A DNA stretch of 63,184 bases. It comes from Nocardia araoensis NBRC 100135. Its GTDB lineage: Bacteria; Actinomycetota; Actinomycetes; Mycobacteriales; Mycobacteriaceae. The stretch's first letter is position 1. Every line of letters starts with the position of its first letter. The stretch spans positions 1 to 63,184 of the forward strand of contig NZ_BAFR01000033.1 of NCBI RefSeq assembly GCF_000308435.1, read 5' to 3'. Below the pieces are notes generated by a model. That model was not told the DNA's origin. It saw only the letters and a program-made list of their open reading frames with translations, and did not search any database. This document shows, piece by piece, positions 4,244 through 63,184 of the stretch. The translations under genes and the position numbers were made by a program.

Positions 4244-4250
4244 ACTCAGC

Positions 4251-6496: not shown

Positions 6497-6636
6497 ATCC
6501 GGCAGTGAACCCCCAGCGCGATTCTGGCTCGAACCGAGAAAACCGCTGGCAGGCGCGCGTCCGGAGGGCAACCGACCATGCCCGTCGGGTCGGCAATCCG
6601 GCGTGCACATACGTCCAGGTCAAGGAGGACGCTGAA

Positions 6637-28645: not shown

Positions 28646-28675
28646 GCCGGCTCGCGATGGAGCGCTGAGGCCCGA

Positions 28676-33667: not shown

Positions 33668-34111
33668 GTGCGAGCCCTTCTGCAGCGCGTGAGTTCGGCG
33701 CGGGTCATCGTCGACGAGCAGGTCGTCGGCCGGATCGATCCGGTGGCCGACGGCCTCCCGCACGGCCTGGTCGCCCTGGTCGGCGTGACGCATTCCGACA
33801 CCGAGGCGAGCGCGCGGGCGCTGGCCGACAAGGTGTGGCGGTTGCGCGTCCTCGACGGGGAGCGCTCGGCCGCGGATCTGGGCGCGCCGATTCTGGTGGT
33901 CAGCCAGTTCACGCTGTACGCGGACACGAAGAAGGGCAGGCGCCCGTCCTGGTCGGCTGCCGCGCCCGGCGCCGTGGCCGAACCGCTCGTCGAGCACTTC
34001 GCGCAGGCATTGCGCGAACTCGGCGCAACCGTGGCCACCGGGCGGTTCGGTGCGCACATGCAGGTCGAGTTGGTGAACGACGGTCCGGTCACCCTCTTGG
34101 TGGAGCTGTGA
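33668..34111 (+). CDS. dtd: D-aminoacyl-tRNA deacylase
   Basis: A 147-residue homodimeric enzyme that removes D-amino acids (and glycine from mischarged tRNA-Ala) from tRNA. Signature motifs [17 protein letters not shown] and, near the C-terminus, [11 protein letters not shown] (the NxGPxT motif) are both intact. [21 protein letters not shown] is the usual N-terminus. It starts at GTG 33668 with little upstream leader. A short GC hairpin follows the stop. Confidence 0.95.
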
Positions 34112-34295: not shown

Positions 34296-34619
34296 ATGGC
34301 GGACAATGTCGAATTCGACGAGCATCTGTTCCGCAAGGCGGCCCAGAAGACGGGGCATGTCGAGGACCGGATCACCGGCATCATCGACAGATTGAGCGCG
34401 TCGATCGCCGCGCGGGGAAACTGCTGGGGCAACGACAGTATCGGCCGCAACTTCGCCAACGGACCCGATGGCTCGGGCGGTTACACCACGACCAGGGACA
34501 ACCTGATCAAGGGCGCCCGCAACGTGGCCGGCACCTTCGAGAACTTCAGTCAAGGACAGACGAAGACCGCGAATCTGCTGCGCGACATGGAGCACGGCAA
34601 CCGCGACGGCATCCGCTGA
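34296..34619 (+). CDS. WXG100-like type VII secretion partner of the giant protein
   Basis: A 107-residue protein. Helix 1 is LFRKAAQKTGHVEDRITGIIDRLSASIA. The turn is NCWGNDSIGRNFANG, whose W-G-N-D…G…F pattern is typical of WXG100-like proteins encoded before CpnT-type toxins. Helix 2 is DNLIKGARNVAGTFENFSQGQTK. ATG 34296 has GGAGGAG upstream. It leads the three-gene cassette, lies 19 bp before the YbaB-like gene, and probably pairs with the WXG100-like N-terminus of the giant protein during secretion. Confidence 0.72.
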   Translation: MADNVEFDEHLFRKAAQKTGHVEDRITGIIDRLSASIAARGNCWGNDSIGRNFANGPDGSGGYTTTRDNLIKGARNVAGTFENFSQGQTKTANLLRDMEHGNRDGIR

Positions 34620-34638: not shown

Positions 34639-35139
34639 ATGACGAACGAGCAAGCCAAGGCGGACTTGGCCGACATTCTCGATGGCGTCCAAGAACAGAT
34701 GCGGATCATCGCACGGTTGCAGCAGGAGCGCGCCGAACTGACCGGTCGCGCGACGGTGCGCGGCAAGCGGGTGACGGTGGTCGTGAACGCCGACAACACG
34801 GTGATCGACACCCAGTTCGGTCCCAATATCGAGGATCTCAGCCATGCCGAGATCGCCAAGGCGGTCACCGAGGCGGCGCAGCAGGCCAGCGCGGATGTGG
34901 CCCGCAAGACGCGGGACCTGATGGCGCCCTTGGACACTCATCGGGCACGGATGCCGAAGCTGTCCGACCTGGTCGAGGGCATGCCCGACCTGCGTGCGCC
35001 GGAACCGGTCCCGGCCCCGACGGCTCCGCCCAACGCCAGGGAGCGCAGGGAGTTCTCGGACGGCAGCGGCATGCGCTTCACCGATACCGAGACCGTAGAA
35101 CGCGATCGTGGTGGATCGGTCACCGATTCCGGCTGGTGA
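34639..35139 (+). CDS. YbaB/EbfC-like protein in a type VII secretion cassette
   Basis: A 166-residue protein. A helix (LADILDGVQEQMRIIARLQQERAEL) is followed by strands (GRATVRGKRVTVVVNADNTVIDTQFG) and a second helix (AEIAKAVTEAAQQASADVARKTRDL): the YbaB/EbfC nucleoid-protein fold. The last 50 residues are a proline-rich tail. Such genes recur between WXG100-like and giant toxin genes in Nocardia-type genomes, which suggests a chaperone or secretion role and not chromosome binding. It lies 37 bp before the giant frame. Confidence 0.72.
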   Translation: MTNEQAKADLADILDGVQEQMRIIARLQQERAELTGRATVRGKRVTVVVNADNTVIDTQFGPNIEDLSHAEIAKAVTEAAQQASADVARKTRDLMAPLDTHRARMPKLSDLVEGMPDLRAPEPVPAPTAPPNARERREFSDGSGMRFTDTETVERDRGGSVTDSGW

Positions 35140-35176: not shown

Positions 35177-38100
35177 ATGGCTATCGAGCTGCCTTCCGCA
35201 CTGAAGTACCTCGAGCCGATCGTCGGCATGGAATGGCCCGAGGGCAACGAGGACCAGATGTGGGGTCTGGGCGGGGACTGGCGGACCGCCGCGGAGGAGT
35301 TGCGTTCGGTCATCCCCGACATCGTGGCGGCCAAGAGCGCGTCGATGACCGCCTATCCCTCGGGCGACGGCTACGAGGAGATGGTCAAGGCCTTCGACAG
35401 CTTCCTGACGTTCAGCGGCGGCAACCCGCAGGACGACCAGACGCTGTCGAAGCTGGCCGACTACTTCAAGGAGATCGGCGACTCCGCTTACGACGTCGGT
35501 ACCGAGATCGAGTACGGCAAGCTGATGTACTGGTCGTCGCTGGCGTTGCTGGCGGCGGAGCTGGCGGCGTCGTTCGCGTCCGGACCGTTCAAGCCCGCGG
35601 TGGACGCGGCGGCGATCGCGGCCACCCGGATCGCGGTCCGCATCATCGGCCAGCGGTTGGTGCAGGCGGTGATCCAGCGGGTGGGGCGGATCGTCGCGAA
35701 CCGGTTCGTGAGCTTCCTGCTCCGGCACGTCGCGATCGACACGATCCTCGGCACCATGCAGGAACTCGGCGTGCAGGCCTACCAGGTCGAGCAGGGGCAC
35801 CGCAAGAACATCAACGTCGAGCAGGTCGTCGTGACCGCCGTCAGCTCCGCGGCGGGCGGCGCAGCGGCGGGGCCGCTGGGCGAGAAGCTCGGCCATGCGC
35901 TGACCCGGAAGTTCGGCCCGGAGTTCAATCCGTTCCTGCACGGCATGATCACCGGTACGACGGCGGGATTGGTCGGCGCGGGCGCGGGTTTCGCCGGCGC
36001 GACCGCGACGCAGTTCGGCTTCGACGTGGCGACGGACGGGTTGGACCAGGCGCTGCAGAACCTGGGGAACACGCCGGTCGACTGGCGGATGTTCACCGCG
36101 GGCGCCTCGAACGGTGCGATGACCAGTGTCGCCAAGGTCGGTTCCGCGCAGATGTGGAACAAGGTGATGCCGACCACGATGAGCCGTCCCGATCTGGGCA
36201 CCCGCCTGAACAACCTCTTCGCCGACGCGAGCGGGCCGCGGGTGGGCTACCGGCCCGATGGTGCGGGGACGCCCGGCGCGGGCGACGGCAGTCTGGCTCC
36301 CGGCGCCGGGAACACTTCCGGCGCGTCGAACACGCCCGGGGCGTCCAACGGTGCGGGGGCTCCGCGCGCCGGAATGCCGGCGGCCGGGAACGGCGGCACG
36401 GACACGTCGCGCACCTCCGGTGCGTCCGGGGGAGATCGGGTTTCGAGCGCGGCCTCCGATGGGGCGAGGTCGGATGGGAACGAGGCCGGGCGTAACGGCG
36501 AGTCCGGCGCTCGGGCGCAGACCGGGGAGCAGGGCTCGTCCGGTGAGCGCGCGTCGTCGGGTGAGCAGTCTTCGTCGGGCGAGCAGTCGTCGTCGGGTGA
36601 GCGGACGACATCGGGTGAGCAGTCGTCGTCGGGTGAGCAGTCGTCGTCGGGTGAGCGGACGACATCGGGTGAGCAGTCTTCGACGGGTGAGCATTCCGCG
36701 TCAGGGGAACGGGCCACGTCCGGCGAGCGGTCGACCTCCGACACCGGAGCAGGGCTCGCCGACGAAGGAAGGCAAGACCGCGGAACCGGAGCCAGCCGGT
36801 CCGACGAGCCGAATATAGCTGCGGGCCAGCATGACAGGGCTGGCGACCCTGGGGTCGCGCAGCGCGGCGCCGTCGACGGTGTGCAGAACCCGGAGACGCG
36901 GTCGCTGTCGGACATGCCCCCGACGGGTGCGACACCGGTCGCGGGCGCCCCGCTGACCGGTCCCGCGGTCACGCCGCCCGCCGGGCCTGCCACCGCGGGC
37001 GCGCCACCGTCCTCCGGTGCCGCACCGGGCCCGACACACTCGTCGCCTGCTTCGCCGGGACCGAGCGACGCACGGCCCGCGCCGTCCGCCGATTCCCGCA
37101 CCCAGACCGGCACACCCGACGGCAGGGCGACCGCCGACCGGGGCCGCGCCGGTGTGGCCGATCGCGCCGCTGGTCCCGGCCGCGACGAGCCCGGAGTGCG
37201 GGCGGGTAAGACCGACGCCGAGGCGCCGCGCGCCGAATCGAGGCGGGAGACCGGTGCGACCCGCCAGGTCGGCGAGGCGCGTCCAACCGGAGAAACGCGT
37301 CCAGCCGGAGAGACGCGCCAGGCGGGTGCGGACCGCCCGGACGGCGAGGCGTCGCGATCCCGCGATACCTCGGAATCCGGAGACGGGCGGCGCGACACCG
37401 CGGAGCCGGTCGTGCTGCCGCTCGCCGGTGACGCGGGCGAGGCCAGGCCGGTGCGCAACGCGGGCGGAGATACGGAAGCCAGGACTCGCCGCCCGGGCAG
37501 GGATACCGATGGCGAGTCCCGTCGCCGGGATACGGACTCCGAGGACCCGGCTCGGCGGGACACGGACGAGACCACGCGGGACGACCCGGAATCCGACGCG
37601 GCGCAACAGGATCATCCGAAGAATCGCGGGGAGTGCGCCCGGCTTTCGCTAGCGGAGCTCCGAGAGGCCACCGGGAGCGATACCATCCGGCCGCCGGACG
37701 AGCCGGTCGGCGAGCGCGGCATGTCCCTGCGCGAAATCGAGCAGGCAGCGGGCGGCCGCCTGTGGGACTATCCCGACGGCGGACCGGAGCAGTCTCGCCA
37801 CCAAGGTATCGCCGACGAATTGCTGCGGATGGCGGCGGGGATGGACCCGCGCGATGTCGCCGAGGGCCGTGGACCGCGCGCCCTCGTGGTGGACGAATAC
37901 ACCGGCCCGGTCGACGAGCACGGGGTCGGCGCCCACGCCTACACCTTGACCGTGCGCATGCATCCGGACACCGGCGAGTTCCGCATCGAGGTATCCGATC
38001 CGGGGGCGGAGAGCCGCAAGGGGTTCCCGCCGGACGTGCCCGCGGATCTGCGCTCGGTGTCGGCGGTCCTGTTCGATGGTGCGGGAAAGGCGGTGTCGCC

Positions 38101-41100
38101 GAGCGGATCCGACCCACGCGTGCGACCGGCCGACGAACGCCCGATCTACGGTCCCGACGGTGAGATCGCCGGTCGGCGCGACGACGAGACGCCGAAGCAG
38201 TTCCGCGCGCGGCTGCGGGCGGAGATGGCGGACATGCACTCGAGGCGGGCCGCCGAGCAGGCGCGGCGGCTGCGTGACCTGGTGGACCGCATCGATGAGG
38301 CGGATCTGCCGGAAGGGGTGACGAAACGCTCGCTGCGGATCAAGGCGGGACAAGCCGAATGGCATGCCCGCGAGTTCCGCAAGAACGCCGACACCTGGTG
38401 GCGGGTCGCCGGTGGGCGTCCCGCGGACGATGCCCCGGTACCGCCGCATTCGTCGTCGGACCCGGCTCCGGACCCGGTGCGCTCGCGCAACGACCCGGAT
38501 TCACCGGAGCCTGCGCGTGTTCCGCCGGGTGACTCGGATTCACCGGAGCCTGCGCGTGTTCCGCCGGGTGGCCGTGACCCGGGCGCAGGGGACGATGTGA
38601 ATCGGCGATTCGATCCGGCGGCGCGGCCGCGCGACGGCGATGAGGTGTCGGAACCGGGGGACCGGAAGGCGGCGCCGCTGGACGGCGGCGATTCGGAACC
38701 GGCGCGCGTCCACGATGACTCGGATTCACCGGAGCCTGCGCGTGTTCCGCCGGGTGACCGTGACGCGGGCGCTGTGGATGAAGCGAATCGGCCATCAGAT
38801 CCGGCGGCCCGGCCACGCGACGCCGATGAGGTGCCGGAACCGGGGGACCGGAAGGTGGCGCCGCTGGACCGCGGCGATGCGGAGGGCGCGAGGCCTGCAC
38901 TCGACCGCGCCCCGGCGGCGGAGGGCGACGACACGCGGCCCGCACGCGACCGCACCCAGGCGCTCGACGAGACGCCCGACTTCCTCGGTGAATCCGACGA
39001 CGCGGAGCACCGGGGGGAACACGGCGACGACGATGTCCCCACCGGCATGTACCGCGACGCCGACGGGCTGTTGCACAAGTTCGGTGACCGCCCCGACTCC
39101 TACCGCGATCCGGACGGAACGTGGCATCACCAGGACGACGACCCGGGCACCTACCGCGACGACAGTTTCCGCTTGCACGACGCGCTGACCAAGGAATATC
39201 TACGCGATCCGCTGACGAACCGGCCCTATCGGTACCTGGCCGATCCCGGCGACAAGCAGCCGTACACCGTGGTCGACGAGACGATCGCGGGCCAGATCGC
39301 GAAAGCGGTCACCGAGCGGGCGACCTTGGAGGCGCAGCGCGACACGGCCAATGACGGGGTCAAGCGGCACATGGCGGAGTTCGGGATCGAGAAGATCAGC
39401 GATCTGGCCGAGGAGAAGCTCGCCGGGCGCGTGGCGAAACTCGAGATCGAGATCCTGGAGTCCGACCTCTCCGACGACGAGAAGCAGGCGAAGCTGGATC
39501 GCCTGGGCGAGATGGAGCGCAGCGCCGAGGAGTTCAACCGGCTGGGCCCACCGCTGGTGCAGGCATCGAAGACGCTCGGCGAACTGGGTGGCCGGGCGTT
39601 CGCGCTGGACGCGGACAAGCGGCCCGGTGCGGTGCTGCTGTCGCCGTTCGAAGGCGCGATCGATGGCGCCGATACCGTCGACATAGCTGTGCTGGTCCCC
39701 GGTATCGACGGGGGGCCGCCGAAGCTGGTGGTGATCGAGGCCAAGGGTGTCCACTGGGACCTCGGTGGTTCCAAAGTCGCCGAAGCGCAACAGGGTTCGC
39801 CGGAATATCTGCGCCGCACGGCCGCGATCGACAAGAACCTGCGGCGGATTCTGACCGAGACGCCCGAGGAGATGGCGGCGCGGGGCGTCAAGCCGGACAG
39901 TGCCGAAGGGCGCGCGCTGGCGCGGGCGCGCGAGCAACTGCTGAAGGCGCATCGGGATGGAACGCTCGAGGTCGAGTACCACCTGGTGCACGCCACCAAG
40001 AACGGCGTCGTCACCTCGCGTGAGTTCGATCTCCATCGGGACGGCGTGCTGGTGCGGGTCGATGTCATCGGCGGCATCGAATCGCCCGCGCTGACGCGGA
40101 CGCCGGACCGAGCATCGCCCGCTGACGCCTCGGTACGTGATGCCGACGCTCCAACGCACGACGCAGGCACTCCGGCGTGGGACGCCCACATTCCGGCGCG
40201 GGACGCCGAGGATTCGTCACTCCCGCCGCAGGACCACGACAGCGACGCGGCGGCCGCCCGCGACGCGGAGTTGCTCGGCGTTCCGGGCGAGGACGAATGG
40301 TCGCACCTGACGCCGGAGGAGGTCGGCGAGCGGCTGCGGGAGCACCTGCGCGGCGCGATGGCCAACCCCGACTTCGGAGTCTTCGGGTTCGACCTGGACG
40401 GTTTGAATCCCGAGGTGGTGCGCGAGTACGCCAGGGCGATGGTCGATCTGGTCGATCGGTTCCCCGCCGTCGACCTGCGCAGCATCGGTATCGGCGGGCT
40501 GCCGTCCGAGGTGATCGGCATGGCGCAGCCACGGCTGGACGCTTCCGGCCACATGTTCACCGAATCGATCGTCCTCAGCTACGACCATGCGACCGGGGCG
40601 CAGACGTTCCGGGATCGGATGCGGATCGGTGTCGACAACGGCCGGTTCTCCCCGGAAGTGCTGCGTCGTCCGGTCCGGGCCGTCGTGGCGCACGAATACG
40701 GGCACGCGCTCGACTACGCCGGTCAACAGAACGCGCGGCATCGGGCCGAGGAACACCTGTACGAGCGTTATCTCGACGACGACACCCGCGATCCGCGGCT
40801 CGCTTTCGAGGATTGGCTGCGCCAGCTCAGCGGCCACAGCTTCGACCGCGACGGCAACCTGCGGCCGGAAGAGGCGCTGCCCGAGGCGTTCGCCGATCAC
40901 GTGCTGCGTGGCGACGACGACCCGGCCGGCGCTCCCGCCCGAGCGCTGCACGACCTGCTGACCCGGTTGGCCGCCGAGCCGCCGGAGAACAGCGACGCGC
41001 CGCTCTCGCTCGAGGCCGACCACATCGACCTTCCGGACGATGGTTCGCGGGCGCGTGCTCCCGACGACTCGCTCGGCCGCCATGGGGACGTGCTGTTCGA

Positions 41101-56100: not shown

Positions 56101-59100
56101 GCTCGATCAGTTGCGCGCGGCCGGCGTTGGCGCGGAACGGTCCCGGCCGCAGGACGTGATCGACGCGCTGGAGCGGCTGGCCCAGCAGCGGGCCGACGCG
56201 CTGCACGAGGTGCAGCCGCTGCGGCACGAGCGCGACGACCTTGCCGCCCGTCTGGGCCTGTTGGACCGGGACGGACGAGTCGATCAGGCGGCCTGTGAAC
56301 CGGAGCGGCTGGACCGGACCGTGGCCGTCCTGCGCGCGGCGGTCCGGGACGGGCTCGCGGACGGCACGCTCTCCGACGAGGAGGCCGCCGCTCGCCGCCG
56401 GGACGTCGACGCGCTCGACGCCGTCGCGCGCGAGGTGAACGACGCGCACAACGCGATCGGCCGCATCCAGGACGACATGGCCAGGGTGGCGGGCGCGTAC
56501 CGAGACATCGTCGAGCGCATGGGCGGCCGGATGGTGACCGACCGGGTCGGCATCATCGAAGGCGAGCGGCCGCGCATCATCGTGCTCGGTCCCCGGCCCG
56601 ATCCGGCCGCGCCGCGCGCCGAACACGACGCCGCTCTGGCCGACGCCCTGCGCCGCAGTTCCGAAGTGGCACAGGCGATCGTGCGTCCGGAGACCACCGT
56701 GGACTACCGTCACGTGCTCGCCGACCGCGAGGACAACGTGCGGACCCAGGACATGGATCCGCCGGAGATCGAACGGTTGAGTACCGGATGGATCGGCGGC
56801 CGCCGCCTGGACATCACCTCGTGGCGCGACGACGAGGGCGTCTGGCACCGCGTCGATCCGACCCGTCCGGACTGGGAATTCGGGCGCGACCGTAGCGAAC
56901 TGCCGAAGAAGTACTCGCCGAAGGAACTGCCGGACGGCGTCAGCGGGTGGGCGATGGAGGACGTCGTCAACGACATCACCCTGCCGACCGACGACGTCCC
57001 GCCCGGCATGATCCCGGAGAGCACCCTCCCGGTGCACATGCCGCAGGCGCCTTCGCGGTACGACACCTCGGGCGTCGACGAGAACGACGTGTTCACCCAG
57101 CACTGGGGCGGCGATTCGTACAACGTGGTGCGCCTGCTGCTGATGGCGGCGCAGGTGCCGAAGCATCCGGCGGTGAAGGCCTGGATCCAGCGCCATCCGG
57201 AGATCGGCGAATGGGTGCAGGCGCGGCCGTGGCTGCGGCATGTGCCGCCGTTCGGCACGGTGTTCCGCAACTACGAATGGTTCGCCCCGCCGCAGCGCAA
57301 CATCCAGCCGATGCACCGGCCGTGGAATACGGCCGACCATGTGCCGCCGGGCGACCGGGTCGACATCCCGGAGGGCCTGCAGCGCGAGTGGGACCGCGAC
57401 ATCGCCGCCTGGCAGCGGGTCCAGGACTGGGCCGACGGGGAATACGAGCGGTTCCTAGCCGACGACACCGATCTCGACCGGATCGCCGACGGCCTGGACC
57501 GGCATCGGCGCGCCGAGCGGGAAACCCGGGCGCGCGAGGTGGTGGACGTCGTCGCGCGGCTGGTCCAGCGGCAGCCTGGCATCGACCCGCTCGGCGACGT
57601 CGACGCGCAGCTGCGGCGCGTCCACGACGACATCGACCGGGTGGCGGGCGATCTGGCGGACCGGTTCGCCGCCGATGACCCCGAGGCGATTCGCGCCACG
57701 GTCGAGGACATCCGCGAACTGCTCGCGGGCGGTGGCGATCCGGAACAGATCGCGACGGCGCTCGCCGAGCACATGCGCGACGACGTTCCGACGTTCACCC
57801 GCGAGGAACTGGCGCGCATCAAGAACCACTTGATGGTCGACGAGCACCGGGTACGCGACCACGGCGACCCGCACGGCCGGTACGTGCACACGCGGATGGA
57901 TCGCCTGGCCGATGTCGCGGAGGCGTGGCGCCGCCTGATCGACGGCGCTGCGCTGCCGCAGGATTTCGTGCTGCTCGACGACATGCTGGCCGAGGCGCGA
58001 TTCCTGGACGACAATCCCGGCGCGAGCTGGCAGCAGGCCAACGCGCATGCGATCGCGCTCGGCTACCACTGGGACGCCGATCGCCCGCCGTTGACCGATT
58101 GGCGCGCGGGTATCCCGTACGCCCCTGCTCCGCTTCCGCCGAACCCGGGCTATCTGCCTCCCGCATCGGGTGCGACGCCCTCGCGGCCCCATGGCCCCGA
58201 CCCCGCGGAAGGACCTCGCGGCGGCGATCGTCGTCCGTCTGCCGGGGACGAGCCGTCGCGTCCCCGGGAAGAGAACGCCCCCGCGCCGGACGCCGATGGC
58301 GGCGCGCAGAAACCACCGGAGGACCCACCCGCCCTCGCACGGCCGGACGAGCCCGACGAACCCGACGACTCGGGCGACGGCGAGCGGGGCATGCCGCCCG
58401 CCGACCGTTCCGAGGGCGAACCGGACACGGCGAAGGCGTCACCGCCCGCTGTTCGTCCGGACGAACCCGGTCGAAGTGCGTCGGACGACCCGCGAAACGC
58501 CGCCCCTCGGGACCACCCGCCCGCCACCGCGCGGGACGACGCGCACCGTGCGCTCGCCGAACTCGACGAACTGCAGCGCCGAATCGACCAGCAGCTCGAT
58601 GACCTGCTGCGCCGAGCGGGCGCGGAGCTGGACCGGATCGAGCGACGCGCTGTCGACCGCCTGGCCGAAATCGAAGCCGAGGTCGCCGAACTATCCGCTC
58701 GGTCGGACCAAGGCGTCCCGGCCGGCGGCGAGGTCACGCCGCTCGAATCGCCCACGGTCCGCGCCGGAGCCGAGGACCCGGCCGAGGCGGCGTTGGAGCG
58801 CATCCGCGCGGAGTTCGACGACGCGGCCCGCCGCACCGACGAACGATTCGACGAACTGCTTCGTGACACCTTCGCCCAACTCGACGCGATCGCGGCGGAC
58901 CTCGATCGGCACTTCGACGCCGCCGTCGCCCGGCTCGACCGACTCGCCGCCGGACCGGTCGACGCGGTGCACCCGTCTCCGGAGGCCCAGGCACTGGACG
59001 AGCTGCACGCGCGTCTGGTGGCCGAACTGGACGAGATCCATCGCCGCGCCATGGACCGCCTCGCGGAACTCGAACGCGAACTCGACGAATTCGCCGTTGC

Positions 59101-62100
59101 CCCGGTCGATCCGGATACCCCGCCCAGCACATCCACCGCGGCGACTCCGCATGCCGCAGGACCGATTTCGCATGGAGCCGATCGCCCGGGCGTCGGACCG
59201 ACGCGCACGCAGGGCGAGCCGACAGCCCGGTCGGCTGAACGTGACGCGGCGGAGCGGGAGTTGGCGGACGCGCAGGCTGATCTCGCGGATGCTCGACGTG
59301 GTTTGCCGGTGAATGACGAGGATCTGACGCGGGATGCGTTGGATGATGCGCTCGATGCCCTGCGTGGGCGCACGATGCGGGTGGATGAGCAGGGCCCGTG
59401 GCAGGGGCGGGTTGCGGAGTTGGAGCGTGCCGCGCGGCGCGTGTTCGACGCCGAGGACGAATTGGCTCGGGCCGAGGACGCCCGTGCGCAGGCCGCTCGA
59501 CCGCTGCCGGAAGATGCTGGTGGAGAGCCTGTTTCGCGTGCGGGCGATGCGGCGGCCGACGGACCGGTGCGTTCGGACGCCGACCTGGAACGCCCGGTCG
59601 CGCAGCCGGACGCCGGGCCGCCGGACCCGGCCGATCCGCGAGCCGAGGGCGCGGGCGCCGGTGGTGAGCCGCCATCCGGGCCGCCGACGAACGCCGAGCC
59701 GCCGGCCGACAGCCGTCCGGAAGGCGCGCGCCACACCGGCAACCCGGTCCGCGATGTGCTCGATTTCCTTCGCGAACAGCGCGATTGGCCGAACCAGCGC
59801 GAAGCCGAACCGCTCACCGAGGCCGAGACCGAACATGTTCGCCTGCTCGCCCAGGCGCTCGGTCTCGACGAGAGGTTCACCGCGCTGCGCGATCCGCTGG
59901 CCGCGCTGGCCGAGCTGGCCGAAATGGCCAGGGCCCGAGGTTTCCTCGACGATGCCGACGGTCCGCGCATGCGTTACCCGGACGATTTCGAACCGCTCAC
60001 CAGCGAGGAACGCTACGGTGACGAGCAGTACTGGCTGGCCGAGGCGCCCGACGACGGCCTGCGTGTCGTACAGGACGACCTGCGCCGCGCGGGCTTGCCG
60101 ATCGAGCAACCGCGGCCCCCGCGATCGCCCGCGGCTCCCACGAGCCCGGAGGCCTTGCCTCCCGGCCGTCCGGCCGCCGCCGACCCGGCACGCCTGTCCG
60201 CGCAACGGGACGCGGCAGCCCGCGAATTGTCCGACGCGCGAGGCGAACTCGCGGACGCTCGGCGTGGTCTGCCGGTCGATGACGCGGACCTGACCCGGGA
60301 CGCGTTGGACGACGCGCTCGAAGCCCTGCGTGGCCGCACGTTGCGGGTGGATGAGCAGCAGCCGTGGCAGGAGCGGGTCGCGGAGTTGGAGCGCGCTGCC
60401 CGCCGCGTCTTCGATGCCGAAGCGGAAGTCGCTCGCCTGGACGATGCCCTCGCGCAGGCCACGCGGGCGGCCGAGCCGCACTCGAATGATGTGAGCCGAG
60501 CGCAGCCCGCCGAACACACGCACGCCCCGGAGCCGTCCGCTCGCGCCCCGCGCCCAGAACCGATCGACCGGACTCGCGACCGGCTCGCGCGTGGCTTCGG
60601 GCTCGACGACGCCGATCTGTCCCCGGAGCACCTCGGCGCGACCATCGCCGACCTGCGCTACCGAAACCTGTTGCAAGCGGGCATGGTCGAGGCGCTGGCG
60701 GCCGCCACCGAGCGGGCGCGTGACACGCAGCATCCGGACTTGCGCGCGCAGGTGCGAGAGACCCGCGACGCCTGGGCACGGCGGCTGCGCATCGATCCCG
60801 CCGATCTGGATCGCGATCCGGCCGGGACGGTGGAGCGGGCCCGCGCCGCGGTGCGCCGCGACGGGCGAGCCATCGCCGATCTCGCCGACGCCGTCCAAGC
60901 GGCGCGTAGGCAGACCGGCGCCGAACCGCCCGAACCGGGGGAGACCCGCCGGTACACCCTCGAGGTCGATGGCGAGCGCGTGCCCGCGCGGCTGGTCGCC
61001 GACGACAACGGCGGCTGGCGGGTCGAAGCGGCCGACCGTTTCGACGCACCCGAACCGGCGGACACCACCGTGCCCGCACCGCGGCAACCGGAGCGGCCGA
61101 AGTCGCGGCTGCGCCGCCTGTGGGAGGCGCTGACGGCGGGGTATGTCGGCGAGAGCCCGAAGTACCCGTCCGGCTCCGGCATCGACAGCGCAGGCCAGTC
61201 GCTGCTCGCCCACGAAGCCGGGCTGCCGCTCACCAAGCACTACGATCCGACACCGGCGCCCGGCGATGAATACGAAGTGATGCAGACCAAGTTCAGTCCG
61301 GTCCGCATCCTCAAGGAAGCCGTCACCATGTGGCGCAAGCGGGAACTCATCCCGTTCCTGAAGCGCCTGACCTCCCGGGTCGCGAGCCCGGCCGCCGAGT
61401 ACGGCACACCCATCGCCCGCGACGGCGAGGAGTACCGGTACTGGTTGGAGGAGGCCGATCCCGAACTGGTGCGCCGGGAACTCGGGGTGGAACTCGAGGA
61501 GCTGAAGCGACAGGCCGAGGACGCCGCCCGCGCGCTCGCCGCACCGGAGACCAGGCCGGAACCGACCGACGGCGATACGCCCGACGTCACGCCGGAACCG
61601 TCCATGCGACCCGGCGATGACTCGCCCGCGAGCACCGGTGAACTCGCGGACTGGCTGCACGAGTTGTCCGAGGCGACGGTACGTCGGCAGGAGCTGGCCG
61701 ACGCCTTGGCGGCCGCCGCCGATGCCCTCGGCGTCGATCTCGGTGAGCCGACCCCCGAGAACGTCCGCCGGGCCGTCGATCTGCTGCGGTATCAGCAGGT
61801 CCGCCGGATCGGCGCGCTCACCGGTCTCGCCGAGGCGTCCCGCCGGTACAACGCCGAGCACGAGCGGATCCCGTACAGCGACGAGGTCGGCTTCTTCGAC
61901 GCCAACCCGATGAACCGCTTCCTCGGTGAGGTCGTGCGGGCCTTCGGCGGCAACCCCACCCTGCTGGACTGGCAGGGCGTGAACAACGGCGGTGAGCCGA
62001 GCCGCGAGTGGGGCGATCTCTACGACAGCGATCAGCCGGGCCAGGACCAAGGCCTGCGCGCGTTCTTCGAGAACGCGCTGCGCCGCGACCAGATCAAGGA

Positions 62101-63184
62101 CGAGCGCTCGGTGTGGGCGCAGCTGCTCGGCACCGATCTGCACGCGCTCGACGCGCATCAGCTCGCGAACGCGCTCGCGGAGGAGATGGATCGCATCCGC
62201 GAGCACGCTCGCGGCCTGACCGCCTTCCTCGCCGACGCCGACGAGTTCTTGCGGGCCGATGCGGCGGCCGACGAGCTCACCGGCCTGATCGGCGACATGG
62301 CCGGGCGGGACTGGGTGCTCGCGCGGGGCGGTGCGCTGCTGGAGGACGGCACCGGGCTCGGCCTGGTCCCCGGCGAACCCGGTGGGCCGATGCGGTTGGT
62401 GGTCGTGGACGGCAGGCTGAACCACGACCGGGTCATCGCCGATGCGCTCGCGGCGCACCCGAGACTGGCCGAGGCGGTCGACGAGGGCATCGTCGAGGTG
62501 CACTATCTGGTCACCGACGTCCAGCCGGACCGGATCGCGATCGTCGACGGCGGGGTGACGCAGGTGCGTCACTTCACCGGTGCGGTCGAGGGACGTGCCT
62601 TGGACGTCACTGTGGTGAACGACGGCGACGGCTGGCGCGTCGTGCCGGACGCTGCCGTGGGCGCCGACGCGCCGCCCGCCGCCGACGAGACGCCGGAGCC
62701 GTTGTCGCGGGAGGAGATCGGCGCCGCCATCGGCGAACTGGCCGAGCGCCTCGGCATCACCGAAGCGGAGCTGGGCTCCCCGGACCTGCTCGCCCAGCGG
62801 CTCGCGGTGCTGCGCGACGAGAACGCCATTCGCGCGGGCCAGATCGAGGCGATCATCGATTACGCGCGTACCGCCTGGGACATCGACACCTATCACGAGG
62901 TCGGCGACGCGCGGAATGTGCTGGCACACCGGCTCGGCCTGGACGCCGCGGACATGACACCGCGGCGCCTCGCCGAGGCGATGGCGGACCCTGATATCCG
63001 CAACGCCCTGCGGCAGCAGCGGGCCGAGGCGCTGGTCAAATACGCGAAACTGTTGCGCGGCATGGACCCGGCCGCGGTCGATGCCGCCAACGATCGGCTG
63101 GTCCGCCGCCTCGCCGCCTTGCCGGGAAAGGTCCGCGTCACCGGCGTCGGTCAGTTGGGCGAGGTGATCGCCAACCTGTCGCAT
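35177..63184 (+). CDS. Giant WXG100-like multi-domain polymorphic-toxin-like protein, incomplete at the window edge
   Basis: Open from ATG 35177 (GAGG 9 bases upstream) to the window end: 9,336 codons, no stop, so at least 1 MDa. Residues read by eye. 1-130: WXG100-like (LKYLEPIVGMEWPEG; GLGGDWRTAAEELR), as in CpnT. 110-280: hydrophobic and glycine/alanine-rich, likely membrane-active. 355-815: low-complexity linkers. 815-960: papain-like, C820, H920, D941. 1475-1620: PD-(D/E)XK-like, D1502, E1521, K1523. Zincin repeats with HExxH at 1839, 2277, 2517 and 4066. 1970-2110: ADP-ribosyltransferase-like, R1987, S2036, E2056. Six DUF6782-like modules between 2714 and 5805, with HESLH (4248) only in the third. 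4800-5020: kinase-like, K4835, D4916, D4934. 7670-8600: coiled coils. Probably a type VII-exported effector; export and all activities are inferred. Confidence 0.88.
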   Translation, partial: MAIELPSALKYLEPIVGMEWPEGNEDQMWGLGGDWRTAAEELRSVIPDIVAAKSASMTAYPSGDGYEEMVKAFDSFLTFSGGNPQDDQTLSKLADYFKEIGDSAYDVGTEIEYGKLMYWSSLALLAAELAASFASGPFKPAVDAAAIAATRIAVRIIGQRLVQAVIQRVGRIVANRFVSFLLRHVAIDTILGTMQELGVQAYQVEQGHRKNINVEQVVVTAVSSAAGGAAAGPLGEKLGHALTRKFGPEFNPFLHGMITGTTAGLVGAGAGFAGATATQFGFDVATDGLDQALQNLGNTPVDWRMFTAGASNGAMTSVAKVGSAQMWNKVMPTTMSRPDLGTRLNNLFADASGPRVGYRPDGAGTPGAGDGSLAPGAGNTSGASNTPGASNGAGAPRAGMPAAGNGGTDTSRTSGASGGDRVSSAASDGARSDGNEAGRNGESGARAQTGEQGSSGERASSGEQSSSGEQSSSGERTTSGEQSSSGEQSSSGERTTSGEQSSTGEHSASGERATSGERSTSDTGAGLADEGRQDRGTGASRSDEPNIAAGQHDRAGDPGVAQRGAVDGVQNPETRSLSDMPPTGATPVAGAPLTGPAVTPPAGPATAGAPPSSGAAPGPTHSSPASPGPSDARPAPSADSRTQTGTPDGRATADRGRAGVADRAAGPGRDEPGVRAGKTDAEAPRAESRRETGATRQVGEARPTGETRPAGETRQAGADRPDGEASRSRDTSESGDGRRDTAEPVVLPLAGDAGEARPVRNAGGDTEARTRRPGRDTDGESRRRDTDSEDPARRDTDETTRDDPESDAAQQDHPKNRGECARLSLAELREATGSDTIRPPDEPVGERGMSLREIEQAAGGRLWDYPDGGPEQSRHQGIADELLRMAAGMDPRDVAEGRGPRALVVDEYTGPVDEHGVGAHAYTLTVRMHPDTGEFRIEVSDPGAESRKGFPPDVPADLRSVSAVLFDGAGKAVSPSGSDPRVRPADERPIYGPDGEIAGRRDDETPKQFRARLRAEMADMHSRRAAEQARRLRDLVDRIDEADLPEGVTKRSLRIKAGQAEWHAREFRKNADTWWRVAGGRPADDAPVPPHSSSDPAPDPVRSRNDPDSPEPARVPPGDSDSPEPARVPPGGRDPGAGDDVNRRFDPAARPRDGDEVSEPGDRKAAPLDGGDSEPARVHDDSDSPEPARVPPGDRDAGAVDEANRPSDPAARPRDADEVPEPGDRKVAPLDRGDAEGARPALDRAPAAEGDDTRPARDRTQALDETPDFLGESDDAEHRGEHGDDDVPTGMYRDADGLLHKFGDRPDSYRDPDGTWHHQDDDPGTYRDDSFRLHDALTKEYLRDPLTNRPYRYLADPGDKQPYTVVDETIAGQIAKAVTERATLEAQRDTANDGVKRHMAEFGIEKISDLAEEKLAGRVAKLEIEILESDLSDDEKQAKLDRLGEMERSAEEFNRLGPPLVQASKTLGELGGRAFALDADKRPGAVLLSPFEGAIDGADTVDIAVLVPGIDGGPPKLVVIEAKGVHWDLGGSKVAEAQQGSPEYLRRTAAIDKNLRRILTETPEEMAARGVKPDSAEGRALARAREQLLKAHRDGTLEVEYHLVHATKNGVVTSREFDLHRDGVLVRVDVIGGIESPALTRTPDRASPADASVRDADAPTHDAGTPAWDAHIPARDAEDSSLPPQDHDSDAAAARDAELLGVPGEDEWSHLTPEEVGERLREHLRGAMANPDFGVFGFDLDGLNPEVVREYARAMVDLVDRFPAVDLRSIGIGGLPSEVIGMAQPRLDASGHMFTESIVLSYDHATGAQTFRDRMRIGVDNGRFSPEVLRRPVRAVVAHEYGHALDYAGQQNARHRAEEHLYERYLDDDTRDPRLAFEDWLRQLSGHSFDRDGNLRPEEALPEAFADHVLRGDDDPAGAPARALHDLLTRLAAEPPENSDAPLSLEADHIDLPDDGSRARAPDDSLGRHGDVLFEGNLPEDGTPLYRGIPRLLPDGSVNPAYHEAVSGRAVPRGTVDLSVEEHISQRRAAESDTTSWSRTRSAAEAFTKGDGVILEWRTGLPPEDASWKFKPVYDLPDGFSQVLIQGTLSDARATRFVAADAHPEHGVREISEQSAGDAKPPRTPDGEPAAHVPDAELLGAPTGDEWSRLSPAEVGERLQEHLRRETDNPEFEVFGFDRDGLDPEAVREIARAMVDLHSRFPQVDIRRIGIGDLPGKAIAAADSGYEDGHSYTKSITVSSKYLASARDLRQTMINRVGDGLYDSAVLRRPAYSIAVHEFGHALEDAGNDAARSGAEDQLLYHYMENHPDNRTMDGFMEWLRENLSGYSLTSRGIDSSEALAESLVRVVAHGRDNVPEPVRMLYDRLIEAVEGDAKLLGAPFDDEWSQLGPAEVGEKLRDTLRRITGDAEFEVSGFDRPGLNGEVLREYARSMVEMFERNPQAKLRRIVIGDLPRGVFAETGQLIDHGTRRVYADDLVINERYAASATEFRKAVEQSVESGWLHSSATRRPVHAMAVHEFGHILDIGSSGYARRKLDAALLNHYLSKQLGEPTTEGYLAWLKADLSGYSFDKSGLLDPAEALAEAFAEVQSRGYSRAGEPARVAYGLLREAVDRGGRRGWLGRFLDGLRLERFISRNESGGIDRESVEAPENTQRHAVRVAEPGDEPRRETALPSTDLTEPLAAGGDEIGTRELVRPDDGQPSGWHHRPIDVAAAEVREVLARSEVGRQALIRLRDLGAAIRFEEPGDGPGQPDGFDGRTMEVFIGTRGRDQLAQAAAVVRAAELAGAVAEGRLEVSPARIRELNRADHIAARVRVEAEALGRQAEFHREMRAAGYDPYGGPVRDVVDAAQRGTLESAYLDAFDAPDRSSLDNPVHRAIRDAEAARLTARRDAVAAAVDAARVQRAEAARGLAGDGELSTRAALADTMERLHGRTVRIDQASAWRDRLSELERAALRVIDLEEVLARSDADLRHVLDLDSPERRPDSSADPARRRAAAVDRLLADSRFDDPEDPRKGVSGRHEAGEEWDAAHRSRAPEGTAEYAPSDLATARELERLQRAEAAARRELARIESDWDRAFRRLKDGFNLPDDEIPATRQEIFDLLRERSERIDIWNGPSYVRLLADLTAQHTRVTADRARLLGEITDLVRRDLSARAGRADDPLPTDIRVHLDESGDLRVLRDTDAPATNTPTDPPRNRVGEGMHQPTITEHAGTLLNRVLVELSGSPQGRWAATMLERLGVDIRFSTESDANIIRLDSGRYNLRPAAGYDPVTDTVVLDSGSGAERHAAELVRAARLSEQVHESAGEPLARLALSRDEYVDLMLDRMAEAYALMYAGNADETGAIDLNRIGVDDLERAYAKAYDDALKYAEKTYWKSGVVRSFPLYHRAAFRAGVRAVREHLNHLGPQVGWRNYGDHFGAAWDRAHGIAPTDRVADTGAPARDTAARVAERATHVALEIESLRMLRDLGDYVPVSPAERAYTEAYDKAYPKAEKAHRRNPEAPPPEEAAYRAGREAVRRYLDRVGLDRAEIALDVVRAAGNEDESRWGHPKAREDGITQHFDDPAPREIGPDGDADLARRVLDQEFDSEPHPERLTDRVVRYPADSEPGRRPRLVVVAEPGQHLDALRELAASHPELADVLWDRSHYLDYREAVRGAGGLPTMHHITVTAAEGPYRHPTRSEALTQMLAHYLRYRAEGRTRLGFEEWLKQLGPEAFYTAEDAEQARGTRRQGFHVPGRLTEGFHEAGYRTAAAADPPLTPPHPAEVAHRLYTRRIPLPSDPGIPRPSHHQLEIFRVGSTMLSIHLEPDGNGGWRVPAPLSNRSESDVLSTHLQGLAAPDRKKLVARIIELLGDGTTDLADRGKPRSRFGRFIDRITPGRTSTPEGEQPQREAGTEPHVDRDRMADESPRGTHPPEDIAADLPDTEVLGAPAADEWSQLNPHEVGELLQDRLREATGNPGFEVFGFDRPGLNSEVVREYARAMVELHQRFPNVDLRGVGIGELKRGELGWADGQIDDVTRKVFTRAIVLSHEHATSARAFRAAVHNAVGNDQLKPITLRRPVFAVAVHEYGHVLDHAGGLAARMRAERHLLELAAADPDGDFGQWLRELSGYSLDEDGLLDDHEAVAEAFAEVVLRDHFGDLGPASKPVRALHDLLLHYAQQPGEIGHPGDAPKNDRLVLDTHDDQVRDLLRQTDYGKQILASLDSGPIRTDYEDSAPDGRAGEFRRRELSALAFTEGNSHVRQALALAHESLHAQRHLQRTTANTPERIRAMSREEFVDAMVDEEAAASGRHFRLAAELRALGYEIPEHPLEQHYREAFDREFARRRWDNSAEAHDLGVAALREPLGRTEWNNGRNYADYYGNIWDEANVGRDGAAEAGRHHPFSPMTADELWQGALTRQDARLRAQDAAAEFAHQAEAVFGTRDVTRSQIERALREAQDAATRSDHDPDLLRRQHDLRVLSDSADRRDQAGFRLEGQRHRLAALAARGVLGAAVRGEHAARVLTDHVAHVPGEPDRLVIAAEAGDHERVMREAERDPLAAALLGRDDVARRFLEVEIDDFGRVRVRSVDEPGPAAPSDPVGEVTPRDLAGTAAAERTARLRAELARTEIGRQIDRALTEHKVRVEYESGAPDRYYPAQRRLVLDPGLTDTQQLLALVRGGTLADLAHAPDMPDAARMRTQSSRRAYVGAMLDLETAARIMEFAAVGELRAARHDIPETELERVYTEAYDAAHAAARAAEPNAWPEDLQDKAREAAFEALRPLMDAEPVGPDQTYADFYGDAWDAAHGARSFDQVVAEALASGEIGATVLREGDSAHGARRVELVRFGNGTELIRKIVVNPRHAVAEVLTGVLGRAVDAPVPESVLHEPTVVYQQVMPGEPAGNRHRDFADPHRLGYADSLPGRALGLLDTMVRPPDRDRFGWLAGPDRQPVGIDHSRAFENSVEAREAVSPFAEGFLTRDADGGVRYRDNGLTREAVDILIERVAALRPRFERYGRTDWHDLAMERLTRVREHARDIVPGPPPDATTPLGDDHTAVREYDRRNTWLYPDGEGGIHATVDGEGVLRVRIQPATRPRDGAGLFRSAMSELGHLVTEIRGEWHREGGPGADPDLYRTPEEAMRDTLLGELAAEYGFTEVRVEPGDPAPTVRFTEPEFAGPDAHSTPDDTGSRERTDDNEREPAADEPEPADTEARGEDLWQLTRIDTETSEVWQLLEQSAVGREAAELLRAEGARVRFADIGEEIGAADAFDRRTMDILIDTHDRGQVELASELVRVAALTEAIRAGEVEVTPSRIRGTTRADYVAAQLRADAVATGRQAEFLRELENAGYPGRPTALAPVEVNYQRAVREQYLDAYDAAVARAHDQALDAERLRELGRAAGVDALLAGDLFDPPWSEEESTSARSTHGRDWDAAQQYERSADEYRPATAEAARETQELVRRHAAHTREIGRIDAVWDELVGKLEGFDPEHNALDRRAQAQDRTDVLAHLRDLARTRRELGDDQLATFDAQVRILSELAADRGRAVAARDEVAVELAARVGHDLMDRQVREAGGSWLTDRVAWLPGRPPKVFVAETGDRFTRVTGDEAPDTSLRHTLAVEDVVADRVWVDVDDSGTVRLRHEQTGPSAVWSEDDGHWMRERTSSPSDAVARPERSASEEPVPDDHLADRLDRVMRELDGDNLRVYVNMLGERVRGDGNSVGRWAMSTVDRLGVDIRFTFDDPPAARDGRQQLRSDTGYVPSADSIVLHLNSSALELAEAWVHAAAMAEQIRAGEGPLERLTLSRDEYVSAMLDRQAEAHARAFEFTRVREERATYQSERDRTADEPRAVEHDDRLRETFDEARKKARKIAARAYRGNSSIRPSMLDAAAYRAAVREVRAALVERGPLIDGVDYATHYAAEWDRANGFTAADLDHAPNPHKADSPELRRMRTADFAFEIETLRVLRESGRFVPVGPAETAYTQAYDRAYRKASHADDGVPPERRAMDAGLAALRKYVDKVGLPEAEIAMEVARSAADNHGRYQPWPMAEDPAALARSAPVEADDLVAARRAVDAMLDRDPAGVRLTERIALFTDERGVHRLVIAAEPGGHVDALRELAVRNSAYADVLWSGTHRLDYLAVSPDDGGTRWLPAGVAEGPYRAPDRYETMQQFLAHYLRYREAGRTGLGFEAWLRQLGPEMFYTKQDQRQADAHEAYEGRQNQGSLRSDALTNFRTEPEVGEPHPAVVAHRLATRQVPLPEPGSGPGVSWPRTTIGTIRIADYSFGIVLEADGNGGWRVPAPTGGGGLDDAFGRLFRGMSDSTVKKLVKRITRLLDDGGSDLVRREPRGALRRMADRLSFGPRDDAPRAIDAGETEHNPPQFDRARTPDPDEGRRAEADRRQAVLDRLAAQNHAAVRERDAARAADDPERLARAEERVERLDRAMATALERDALLRADARPVTDRVGILAGEPPMVLVVNLGGTEPTRVLADVAARYPEVADALAQGARPRELRVDPDGAIRVVPIAPRVDATAGGESQQAEAETGKPGPGDNAVSAEPGLGDDAETSQPSAGDGGAEKPPTAPPFADDPGDEPGPPSDWYFRMRIEQADWEADMAADHAAWLRELADANPDDRWARLRAEQAEWNARMAADRAAWLRLAQAENETWTAGLEADRLRRTADADPDDPWAELRAQQAEWNARMAEDRAQWLRRLYAPIGTEQHVDAGTPDPGSSARPDPATPSAAAPEAGTPSPGADESHTGGADDDPRARMSPETRAEYDRRTAELEQARARRDELRSRRDELAGRLPIDDADDWAALRPGPDGLDRTLEGLRGRTMPVGEMPERLARIDELEQIARDFADADAETARLEAELADLELSTTPVGEYDRLVQQRQALTREREFWRAKRDGRVARCESWNGNVVLDESALRGDQLETTVLRLYEAANVRTIDDIGGPDEAPHTDRVAPEPLELEHRRRTIEKLAAAAEQVNQLDEQIQQVDQRLDQLRAAGVGAERSRPQDVIDALERLAQQRADALHEVQPLRHERDDLAARLGLLDRDGRVDQAACEPERLDRTVAVLRAAVRDGLADGTLSDEEAAARRRDVDALDAVAREVNDAHNAIGRIQDDMARVAGAYRDIVERMGGRMVTDRVGIIEGERPRIIVLGPRPDPAAPRAEHDAALADALRRSSEVAQAIVRPETTVDYRHVLADREDNVRTQDMDPPEIERLSTGWIGGRRLDITSWRDDEGVWHRVDPTRPDWEFGRDRSELPKKYSPKELPDGVSGWAMEDVVNDITLPTDDVPPGMIPESTLPVHMPQAPSRYDTSGVDENDVFTQHWGGDSYNVVRLLLMAAQVPKHPAVKAWIQRHPEIGEWVQARPWLRHVPPFGTVFRNYEWFAPPQRNIQPMHRPWNTADHVPPGDRVDIPEGLQREWDRDIAAWQRVQDWADGEYERFLADDTDLDRIADGLDRHRRAERETRAREVVDVVARLVQRQPGIDPLGDVDAQLRRVHDDIDRVAGDLADRFAADDPEAIRATVEDIRELLAGGGDPEQIATALAEHMRDDVPTFTREELARIKNHLMVDEHRVRDHGDPHGRYVHTRMDRLADVAEAWRRLIDGAALPQDFVLLDDMLAEARFLDDNPGASWQQANAHAIALGYHWDADRPPLTDWRAGIPYAPAPLPPNPGYLPPASGATPSRPHGPDPAEGPRGGDRRPSAGDEPSRPREENAPAPDADGGAQKPPEDPPALARPDEPDEPDDSGDGERGMPPADRSEGEPDTAKASPPAVRPDEPGRSASDDPRNAAPRDHPPATARDDAHRALAELDELQRRIDQQLDDLLRRAGAELDRIERRAVDRLAEIEAEVAELSARSDQGVPAGGEVTPLESPTVRAGAEDPAEAALERIRAEFDDAARRTDERFDELLRDTFAQLDAIAADLDRHFDAAVARLDRLAAGPVDAVHPSPEAQALDELHARLVAELDEIHRRAMDRLAELERELDEFAVAPVDPDTPPSTSTAATPHAAGPISHGADRPGVGPTRTQGEPTARSAERDAAERELADAQADLADARRGLPVNDEDLTRDALDDALDALRGRTMRVDEQGPWQGRVAELERAARRVFDAEDELARAEDARAQAARPLPEDAGGEPVSRAGDAAADGPVRSDADLERPVAQPDAGPPDPADPRAEGAGAGGEPPSGPPTNAEPPADSRPEGARHTGNPVRDVLDFLREQRDWPNQREAEPLTEAETEHVRLLAQALGLDERFTALRDPLAALAELAEMARARGFLDDADGPRMRYPDDFEPLTSEERYGDEQYWLAEAPDDGLRVVQDDLRRAGLPIEQPRPPRSPAAPTSPEALPPGRPAAADPARLSAQRDAAARELSDARGELADARRGLPVDDADLTRDALDDALEALRGRTLRVDEQQPWQERVAELERAARRVFDAEAEVARLDDALAQATRAAEPHSNDVSRAQPAEHTHAPEPSARAPRPEPIDRTRDRLARGFGLDDADLSPEHLGATIADLRYRNLLQAGMVEALAAATERARDTQHPDLRAQVRETRDAWARRLRIDPADLDRDPAGTVERARAAVRRDGRAIADLADAVQAARRQTGAEPPEPGETRRYTLEVDGERVPARLVADDNGGWRVEAADRFDAPEPADTTVPAPRQPERPKSRLRRLWEALTAGYVGESPKYPSGSGIDSAGQSLLAHEAGLPLTKHYDPTPAPGDEYEVMQTKFSPVRILKEAVTMWRKRELIPFLKRLTSRVASPAAEYGTPIARDGEEYRYWLEEADPELVRRELGVELEELKRQAEDAARALAAPETRPEPTDGDTPDVTPEPSMRPGDDSPASTGELADWLHELSEATVRRQELADALAAAADALGVDLGEPTPENVRRAVDLLRYQQVRRIGALTGLAEASRRYNAEHERIPYSDEVGFFDANPMNRFLGEVVRAFGGNPTLLDWQGVNNGGEPSREWGDLYDSDQPGQDQGLRAFFENALRRDQIKDERSVWAQLLGTDLHALDAHQLANALAEEMDRIREHARGLTAFLADADEFLRADAAADELTGLIGDMAGRDWVLARGGALLEDGTGLGLVPGEPGGPMRLVVVDGRLNHDRVIADALAAHPRLAEAVDEGIVEVHYLVTDVQPDRIAIVDGGVTQVRHFTGAVEGRALDVTVVNDGDGWRVVPDAAVGADAPPAADETPEPLSREEIGAAIGELAERLGITEAELGSPDLLAQRLAVLRDENAIRAGQIEAIIDYARTAWDIDTYHEVGDARNVLAHRLGLDAADMTPRRLAEAMADPDIRNALRQQRAEALVKYAKLLRGMDPAAVDAANDRLVRRLAALPGKVRVTGVGQLGEVIANLSH
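36500..36732 (+). repeat. Imperfect 18-bp tandem repeats inside the giant gene
   Basis: About thirteen units of a six-residue motif S-S-G-E-Q/R-S/T, encoded by near-identical 18-bp DNA units (tcgtcgggtgagcagtcg type). They lie in the disordered linker after the membrane-active region. Perfectly matching neighbours (for example 36560-36660) make this stretch prone to slippage in multiples of 18 bp, which keeps the frame. Confidence 0.85.
38496..38756 (+). repeat. Three perfect 36-bp repeats in a linker of the giant gene
   Basis: The same 36 bases, beginning cggattcaccggagcctgcg and encoding DSPEPARVPPG, occur at 38496-38531, 38535-38570 and 38721-38756. A wider block around the third copy also duplicates the 38580-38700 sequence (the AARPRDGDEVSEPGDRKAAPLD type). 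The identity at DNA level points to recent expansion. Confidence 0.85.
40262..43010 (+). repeat. Zincin repeats 1-3 of the giant protein
   Basis: Three related modules of about 240 residues (40262-40980, 41579-42290, 42296-43010) begin with a D/A-x-x-LLGxPxxDEWSxL string. Each runs through a beta-alpha region ending GIGxLP, carries HEYGHALD, HEFGHALE or HEFGHILD (40691, 42005, 42725), then WLRxxLSGYS and an EALAEAFAE-type helix that probably supplies the third, glutamate ligand. A fourth copy is at 46940-47650 (HEYGHVLD at 47372). All four keep HExxH. They resemble toxin-associated metallopeptidases. Confidence 0.8.
43316..46790 (+). repeat. Duplicated 3.4-kb unit A (copy B at 50795-54120)
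   Basis: Landmarks occur in the same order about 7.4 kb apart: the EVGRQALIRLRDLGAAIRF block (43316, against 50795), ERLGVDIRF (44890, against 52290), HYLRYRAEGRTRLGFEEWL (46230, against 53620) and DGNGGWRVPAP (46594, against 53971). The copies have diverged strongly in protein sequence, so the duplication is old. Unit B spans 50795-54120. The segment between them holds the fourth zincin, the HESLH module and the kinase-like domain. Confidence 0.75.
59290..60475 (+). repeat. Near-identical 190-bp coiled-coil repeats
   Basis: 59290-59480 and 60255-60450 encode RGLPVxDxDLTRDALDDALxALRGRT followed by VDEQxPWQxRVAELERAARRVFDAE, with high DNA identity. More distant relatives occur at 55510-55720 (LRGRTMPVGEM…) and 43960-44090 (LHGRTVRIDQASAWRDRLSELERAA). 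The unit is a helical hairpin module reused along the giant protein. Confidence 0.8.

Follow-up and report, generated by a model that had tools for sequence, protein, structure and literature searches.

How long a protein can one bacterial gene encode, and what would such a protein do? Contig NZ_BAFR01000033.1 of Nocardia araoensis NBRC 100135 (assembly GCF_000308435.1) raises both questions; the whole of its 63,184 nucleotides was analysed and is called the window here. From an ATG at position 35177, a single plus-strand frame stays open for 28,008 bases to the window end, comprising 9,336 codons with no in-frame stop, exactly as an initial annotation of this DNA had described it. Some bacterial proteins run to tens of thousands of residues, and the size of the frame does not by itself say what the product is. 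We observed directly the frame and its conservation, an N-terminus and a C-terminal domain common to its relatives, in-frame turnover of the modules between them and neighbouring ESX (type VII secretion) genes. From these we infer, as the most economical explanation, a multi-payload ESX effector: a giant Nocardia gene, located beside an ESX locus in close relatives, whose product is rather probably exported as one multi-enzyme chain.

A giant coding frame kept under purifying selection

The window is a complete contig (C319 of genome G000, one of 351 contigs), and the gene is therefore cut by the assembly: positions 35177..63184 hold its first 9,336 codons, and the 3' end lies beyond the contig. 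Given the local base composition, a codon is a stop with probability 0.0177; the natural logarithm of the probability of 9,336 consecutive open codons is then about -166, which excludes chance as the origin of the frame. The longest stop-free runs in the other five frames of the same interval are 405, 495, 2,998, 607 and 456 codons. The run of 2,998 lies antisense to the giant gene and shows that GC-rich codon structure alone can lengthen frames; evolutionary evidence was therefore sought. An antisense open reading frame (ORF) of 2,949 codons at 42944-51793 on the minus strand, inside the giant gene, is most likely a GC-rich shadow frame. GC content at the third codon position of the giant gene is 0.79-0.91 in all 19 bins.

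The closest matches to the N-terminus come from N. beijingensis (98% identity), N. gamkensis (94%), N. abscessus (93-94%) and N. asiatica (92%). In genome G104, taken as N. abscessus BJ06-0146, the frame starting at the homologous ATG is complete, has 11,854 codons and is collinear with ours to the last residue of the window (residue 9,336, corresponding to residue 10,750 in G104), with 52-93% identity by chunk. The only difference in order is an extra block of ~1,160 residues in G104, inserted between window residues 1956 and 1962. The ratio of nonsynonymous to synonymous substitution rates (dN/dS) against G104 is 0.23 over 1,785 aligned codons and 0.28 over a further 7,330 (9,115 in total), and it is at most 0.5 in each of 40 windows of 250 columns. 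Comparable values were obtained against N. beijingensis (0.26, first 3,000 codons) and against two parts of genome G023 (0.25 and 0.26). In the same run, the N. abscessus and N. gamkensis loci gave 0.44 and 0.41, with windows reaching 1.10 past residue 2000, where differing modules are aligned. Together, these comparisons show that the frame is a real protein-coding gene kept under purifying selection in Nocardia species. The assembly error or frameshift that the initial annotation had asked to be checked does not touch the 9,336 codons of the window, which the G104 homologue and the dN/dS values indicate to be intact; the only break found lies on another contig, C318.

Constant ends and a changing middle

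Complete relatives of the giant end in a conserved domain of ~124 residues, weakly PH-like, which lies 0-3 residues from the protein end in 30/30 proteins having it (51 examined). This constant end does not fit the plan of CpnT-like proteins, with one C-terminal toxin, which the initial annotation had brought in for comparison. The genome of N. araoensis holds one copy of the domain, at C318:2125-2532. Contig C318 starts inside such a giant gene: its bases 2-490 match the tail of the G104 protein in frame 2, and from about 511-520 on the match is in frame 1, the switch falling inside a zone of ~110-residue repeats. The break reflects either repeats collapsed in the assembly or a frameshift of the strain's own. 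Homology and the gene order in G023 and G104 suggest that C318 continues C319, and the alignment with G104 leads us to expect ~1,100 codons past the window end.

The other end of the protein is equally recognizable. A WXG100-like domain (residues 16-155, 35222..35641) scores 75.6 bits with PF25547 (cut-off 27), bearing out the WXG100-like N-terminus initially proposed, and is enclosed in a conserved stretch of ~345 residues that ends at 36211. A 343-residue query from this stretch matched 42/60 genomes, 35/36 within the genus (its own included) and 7/24 outside it. The C-terminal domain was found in 126/148 Nocardia genomes. The matches listed within Nocardia number 150; of these, 82 are in frames of 5,000 codons or more and 11 in frames of 9,336 or more, with a listed maximum of 14,244, and some of the matches in short frames sit at contig ends, like that of N. 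araoensis. Twelve genomes were selected for their long frames; in 10 of them, the N-terminus and the C-terminal domain lie on one contig in frames of equal length, of up to 12,295 codons. Neither G136 (14,244 codons) nor G107 (10,544) gave an N-terminal match at E 1e-20. In a sample of the taxonomic family, 15/201 genomes were positive for the C-terminal domain, one of these 15 being from another genus, with a weak match in short frames; in a sample of the class the count was 6/296, three of the six from other genera. The weak matches to this domain in G307, G469 and G525, all from other actinobacterial genera, lie in frames of 169-234 codons and may represent relatives of the tail that stand alone. 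Among database proteins between 0.55 and 1.75 times as long, 34 have this N-terminus in common; they are mostly from Nocardia and mostly labelled "hypothetical" or "WXG100-like domain-containing".

Members of the family thus have three parts in common, the WXG100-like N-terminus, a linker rich in proline and the constant C-terminal domain, with the modules of the middle gained and lost in frame. G023, for example, is missing window residues ~2000-6530. The first position after the linker (slot 1) also varies: P0010 does not have the domain found there in the window (domain A, below) and is listed with PF14431. A HAE...CxxC pattern is seen in P0010 and P0004.

Several further observations concern the architecture of these genes. 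The insertion site of the 1,160-residue block of G104 (window residues 1956-1962, nucleotides about 41042-41062) appears to be a junction hot spot; near the same junction, G026 has module M (below) directly after the first zincin, and the large loss of G023 begins close by. Two genomes carry tandem giants at one locus, G008:C24 (3,138 and 6,511 codons) and G017:C8 (3,238 and 6,394 codons), and in each pair both giants terminate in a C-terminal domain of this type. WXG100-like N-termini that are more distant (29-36% identity) occur in still larger frames of other Nocardia genomes: 19,559 codons (G105:C1:798217-799059), 18,319 codons (G010:C11:27480-28262), 16,304 codons (G009:C43:12764-13489) and 15,688 codons (G008:C1:377988-378842).

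Enzyme-like domains along the chain

Profiles of relatives and residue patterns uphold the view that several enzyme-like domains are strung along one chain; all of the features given here are on the plus strand. A low-complexity linker, evident from the sequence (residues 346-813, 36212..37615), leads to domain A in slot 1 (residues 814-976, 37616..38104), which is papain-fold glutamine-deamidase-like on the basis of relatives' copies. The homologue in P0012 scores 29.3 bits against PF15644, above the cut-off of 24.1; the P0032 copy does not match this profile, and the window copy has no Pfam match. Domain B (residues 1351-1635, 39227..40081), preceded by a coiled coil, is PD-(D/E)XK nuclease-like: the residues E, D, ExK and Q are present in it and in 21/21 rows with more than 60% coverage, a count that excludes partial copies among the 79 matches. 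Four zincin copies with HExxH follow along the chain, at residues 1702-1929 (40280..40963), 2141-2367 (41597..42277), 2379-2608 (42311..43000) and 3928-4155 (46958..47641). Between the first two lies domain D (residues 1985-2105, 41129..41491; three rows), possibly ART-like by a motif, the final glutamate of which is absent; it has no Pfam match, and the assignment is of low confidence. Domain Gk (residues 4791-5025, 49547..50251), found in 14/51 proteins, is PI3/4-kinase-like, a name suggested by the relative P0012, which scores 17.4 bits against PF00454, under the cut-off of 27.1; P0034 has no match to this profile.

Much of the remaining chain consists of repeated material. Six DUF6782-like copies lie at residues 2710-2853 (43304..43735), 3213-3365 (44813..45271), 4179-4321 (47711..48139), 4594-4731 (48956..49369), 5203-5349 (50783..51223) and 5688-5828 (52238..52660). 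Only the third has HExxH (residue 4248), and the naming draws on the relative P0013, which scores 18.2 bits against PF20573, under the cut-off of 27. Decayed repeats resembling the nuclease core occur at residues 3594-3659 (45956..46153), 4503-4565 (48683..48871), 5554-5616 (51836..52024), 6061-6124 (53357..53548) and 6436-6497 (54482..54667). Two backbone modules are each present in 40/51 proteins: module M (residues 6860-7662, 55754..58162), which contains a partial copy of domain B (residues 6987-7146, E 3.4e-25) and a decayed repeat (residues 7120-7190), and module J (residues 8591-9320, 60947..63136), with a decayed repeat at residues 9058-9125. Between them, two copies of a ~110-residue repeat unit (residues 8014-8108, 59216..59500, and 8336-8430, 60182..60466) are 77% identical. 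The membrane-active segments that had been suggested for this chain gain no support from hydropathy: not one window of 19 residues along it has a mean Kyte-Doolittle value above 1.5.

The ESX neighbourhood, known systems and rival readings

Directly upstream of the giant gene on the plus strand are a small WXG100-like gene (34296..34619; PF06013 at 16.8 bits, under the cut-off of 27.3) and a YbaB/EbfC-family gene (34639..35139; PF02575 at 39.5 bits). Across 14 loci, the small WXG100-like gene precedes 16/16 giants and YbaB precedes 14/16, the exceptions being the first giants of G008 and G017. The giant locus comes after the D-Tyr-tRNA deacylase gene dtd (33668-34111). Further upstream, at 26781-29473, are genes that we judged by eye to resemble secY, adk and map.

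On C318, the end of the giant gene is followed by a 95-residue ORF, DUF6301, a 613-residue gene (d613; C318:3640-5481), a 609-residue gene, EspG, a weak YbaB and EspC, and further on by a second EspG, a pair of WXG100 genes (one at 46 bits, the other at 25.4 and so narrowly below the cut-off), EccB, a subtilase gene and one for a large, EccC-like FtsK/SpoIIIE ATPase. This gene set is an ESX (type VII) locus; the genome has three EccB genes. In G023 a single contig carries, in order, the giant, d613, EspG, the WXG100 pair, EccB, the subtilase and the EccC-like gene, and G104 has the same order, with the giant on the same contig, as far as EccB. The d613 gene is kept in 12/12 giant loci with downstream sequence (11/11 loci plus G104) and stands behind 12/14 giants; the two that lack it are the second ones of the G008 and G017 pairs. 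The 95-residue gene is present in 7/11 loci and DUF6301 in 4/11, with no clear tie to payload.

The N-terminus of CpnT of mycobacteria is likewise WXG100-like. As described in PMC8092274 and PMC7810871, CpnT joins an N-terminal secretion domain to a C-terminal toxin, is ESX-dependent and has WXG100 partners. The Nocardia giant resembles it in its N-terminal domain, has ESX genes in its neighbourhood, and differs from that two-domain plan in carrying its payloads mid-chain and having a constant C-terminus. Toxin-type domains shuffled behind a conserved secretion N-terminus also recall the WXG/LXG type VII polymorphic toxins (PMC3482391), although the Nocardia giants have no variable C-terminal tip. 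The metallopeptidase fold of anthrax lethal factor and PPEP-1, here in four copies in a giant chain, shares ~14% identity with the zincin, a likeness that implies no binding or translocation partner of anthrax toxin.

Giant proteins of this kind are already known, because giant multi-toxin proteins of actinobacteria were described in 2012. That paper (PMC3482391) reports proteins of more than 10,000 residues in which caspase, ART and MCF1-SHE domains occur alongside peptidases of the lethal-factor type; at 13,652 residues, SACTE_5178 of Streptomyces sp. SirexAA-E is the longest it describes. With this protein and with relatives of up to 14,244 codons among the matches listed, our frame is not, as had been supposed, one of the largest conceivable. 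The Nocardia giants resemble those proteins in being actinobacterial, in having several toxin-type domains per chain, including lethal-factor-like metallopeptidases (the four zincins), and probably in size (~10,000 residues or more, compared with 9,336 codons in the sequenced part of our cut gene and 11,854 in the N. abscessus homologue); to their ART domains corresponds at most the one low-confidence, motif-based ART-like domain D. They appear to differ in forming a Nocardia family with a constant C-terminal domain peculiar to it (in our samples, matches beyond the genus are few and weak), in their nuclease-, glutamine-deamidase- and PI3/4-kinase-like domains, and in the ESX locus of close relatives. 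In its main text, a survey of huge bacterial proteins (PMC11573180) has no occurrence of Nocardia or toxin. What is new here is the Nocardia family, the constant tail, the ESX linkage and the record of selection.

As we picture the multi-payload effector, the WXG100-like N-terminus would direct the chain to export through the neighbouring ESX system, with help from the products of the small WXG100-like and YbaB genes beside it. The deamidase-, nuclease-, zincin- and kinase-like domains would act on molecules of a target cell, spacing along the chain would come from helical stretches together with the DUF6782-like and nuclease-like copies that have decayed, and the constant C-terminal domain would be a common cap or docking part and not a warhead. 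As for the target, we lean slightly towards eukaryotic cells, for example those of a predator or a host.

Several results weigh against such an effector. The domain names rest on relatives, residue patterns or one fold match: domains A, B, C, D, Gk and the first DUF6782-like copy of the window have no Pfam or NCBIfam match, the PI3/4-kinase, DUF6782 and M91 profile matches fall under their cut-offs, and a comparison of the nuclease fold of domain B with the PDB gave nothing significant (best E 0.64). Across the family, HExxH is absent from 40/50 DUF6782-like and 14/69 zincin copies; part of the "arsenal" is therefore probably inactive. The break between C318:490 and 520 lies in the window's own genome, and the gene of this strain could therefore be broken. 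A piece of the d613 relative in G031 scores 19.7 against the YezG-like immunity cut-off of 21.7 (a G033 piece scores 14.6, and our own d613 has no match). We saw no immunity gene that changes along with the payload, payload-specific neighbours not having been searched for in relatives. Because of that near-match, and since payload-specific immunity genes were not searched for, an immunity role for a neighbouring gene and an antibacterial role of the giant are possible.

Four other explanations deserve weighing. The exported chain could be a self-processing polyprotein, as the initial annotation had entertained, cut into separate toxins by its zincins or papain-fold domain. This is unsupported, because 17/31 complete members have no zincin (another peptidase is conceivable) and the linker, the one place where signs of cleavage were sought, does not track it, its Pro-Pro count showing no difference by zincin presence (median 36 vs 39, p = 0.54); the papain-fold domain is not constant in slot 1 either, as P0010 demonstrates, and we consider self-processing unlikely. 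Unlikely too, in our judgement, is a surface-attached or structural giant (a stalk, adhesin or biofilm protein) whose enzyme folds are mostly relics. The many decayed copies, with seven nuclease-core-like repeats beside the DUF6782-like domains without HExxH, would suit such a protein, as would the proline-rich stretch with the constant C-terminal domain, and PMC11573180 gives surface proteins, together with nonribosomal peptide and polyketide synthases (NRPS/PKS), as major clusters of huge bacterial proteins. However, domain B keeps its residues in every well-covered row, 55/69 zincins have HExxH, and payload domains vary between species while the ends are constant, as in effectors.

A CpnT-like or classic polymorphic toxin, with the decisive toxin at the C-terminus past the contig end and an immunity gene adjoining, would account for the WXG100-like N-terminus, for a downstream neighbour with a relative just under the YezG-like cut-off, and for the restriction of DUF6301 and the 95-residue gene to some loci. 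It is very improbable, and appears largely contradicted: every protein having the C-terminal domain ends in it, the same constant end is present on C318, and d613 is kept in all loci with downstream sequence, whatever the payload. Finally, the frame could be an artefact, made stop-free by GC-rich codon structure or collapsed assembly, as the antisense run and the break in the C318 repeat zone might hint; dN/dS of 0.23-0.28 throughout and an intact homologue in another assembly leave this scarcely any credence, and refute it for the 9,336 codons.

More tentatively, and at somewhat less than even probability, these sequence data point to a Nocardia ESX that exports chains of ~1 million daltons (~10,000-12,000 residues, perhaps more), the largest type VII cargo, with swappable enzyme payloads between a WXG100-like head and a PH-like tail and a body made largely of decayed DUF6782-like and nuclease-like copies. 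If the multi-payload effector exists, ~10,000 residues pass through a type VII machine as a single chain, and ideas of how cargo crosses EccC-type motors and the mycomembrane would face a hard test. The constant ends and shuffled middle contrast with the tip-swapping of polymorphic toxins, and suggest that giant genes may grow by module duplication, decay of copies into spacer and in-frame gain and loss of blocks. Many Nocardia species, some of them opportunistic human pathogens, would then carry an uncharacterised multi-enzyme effector.
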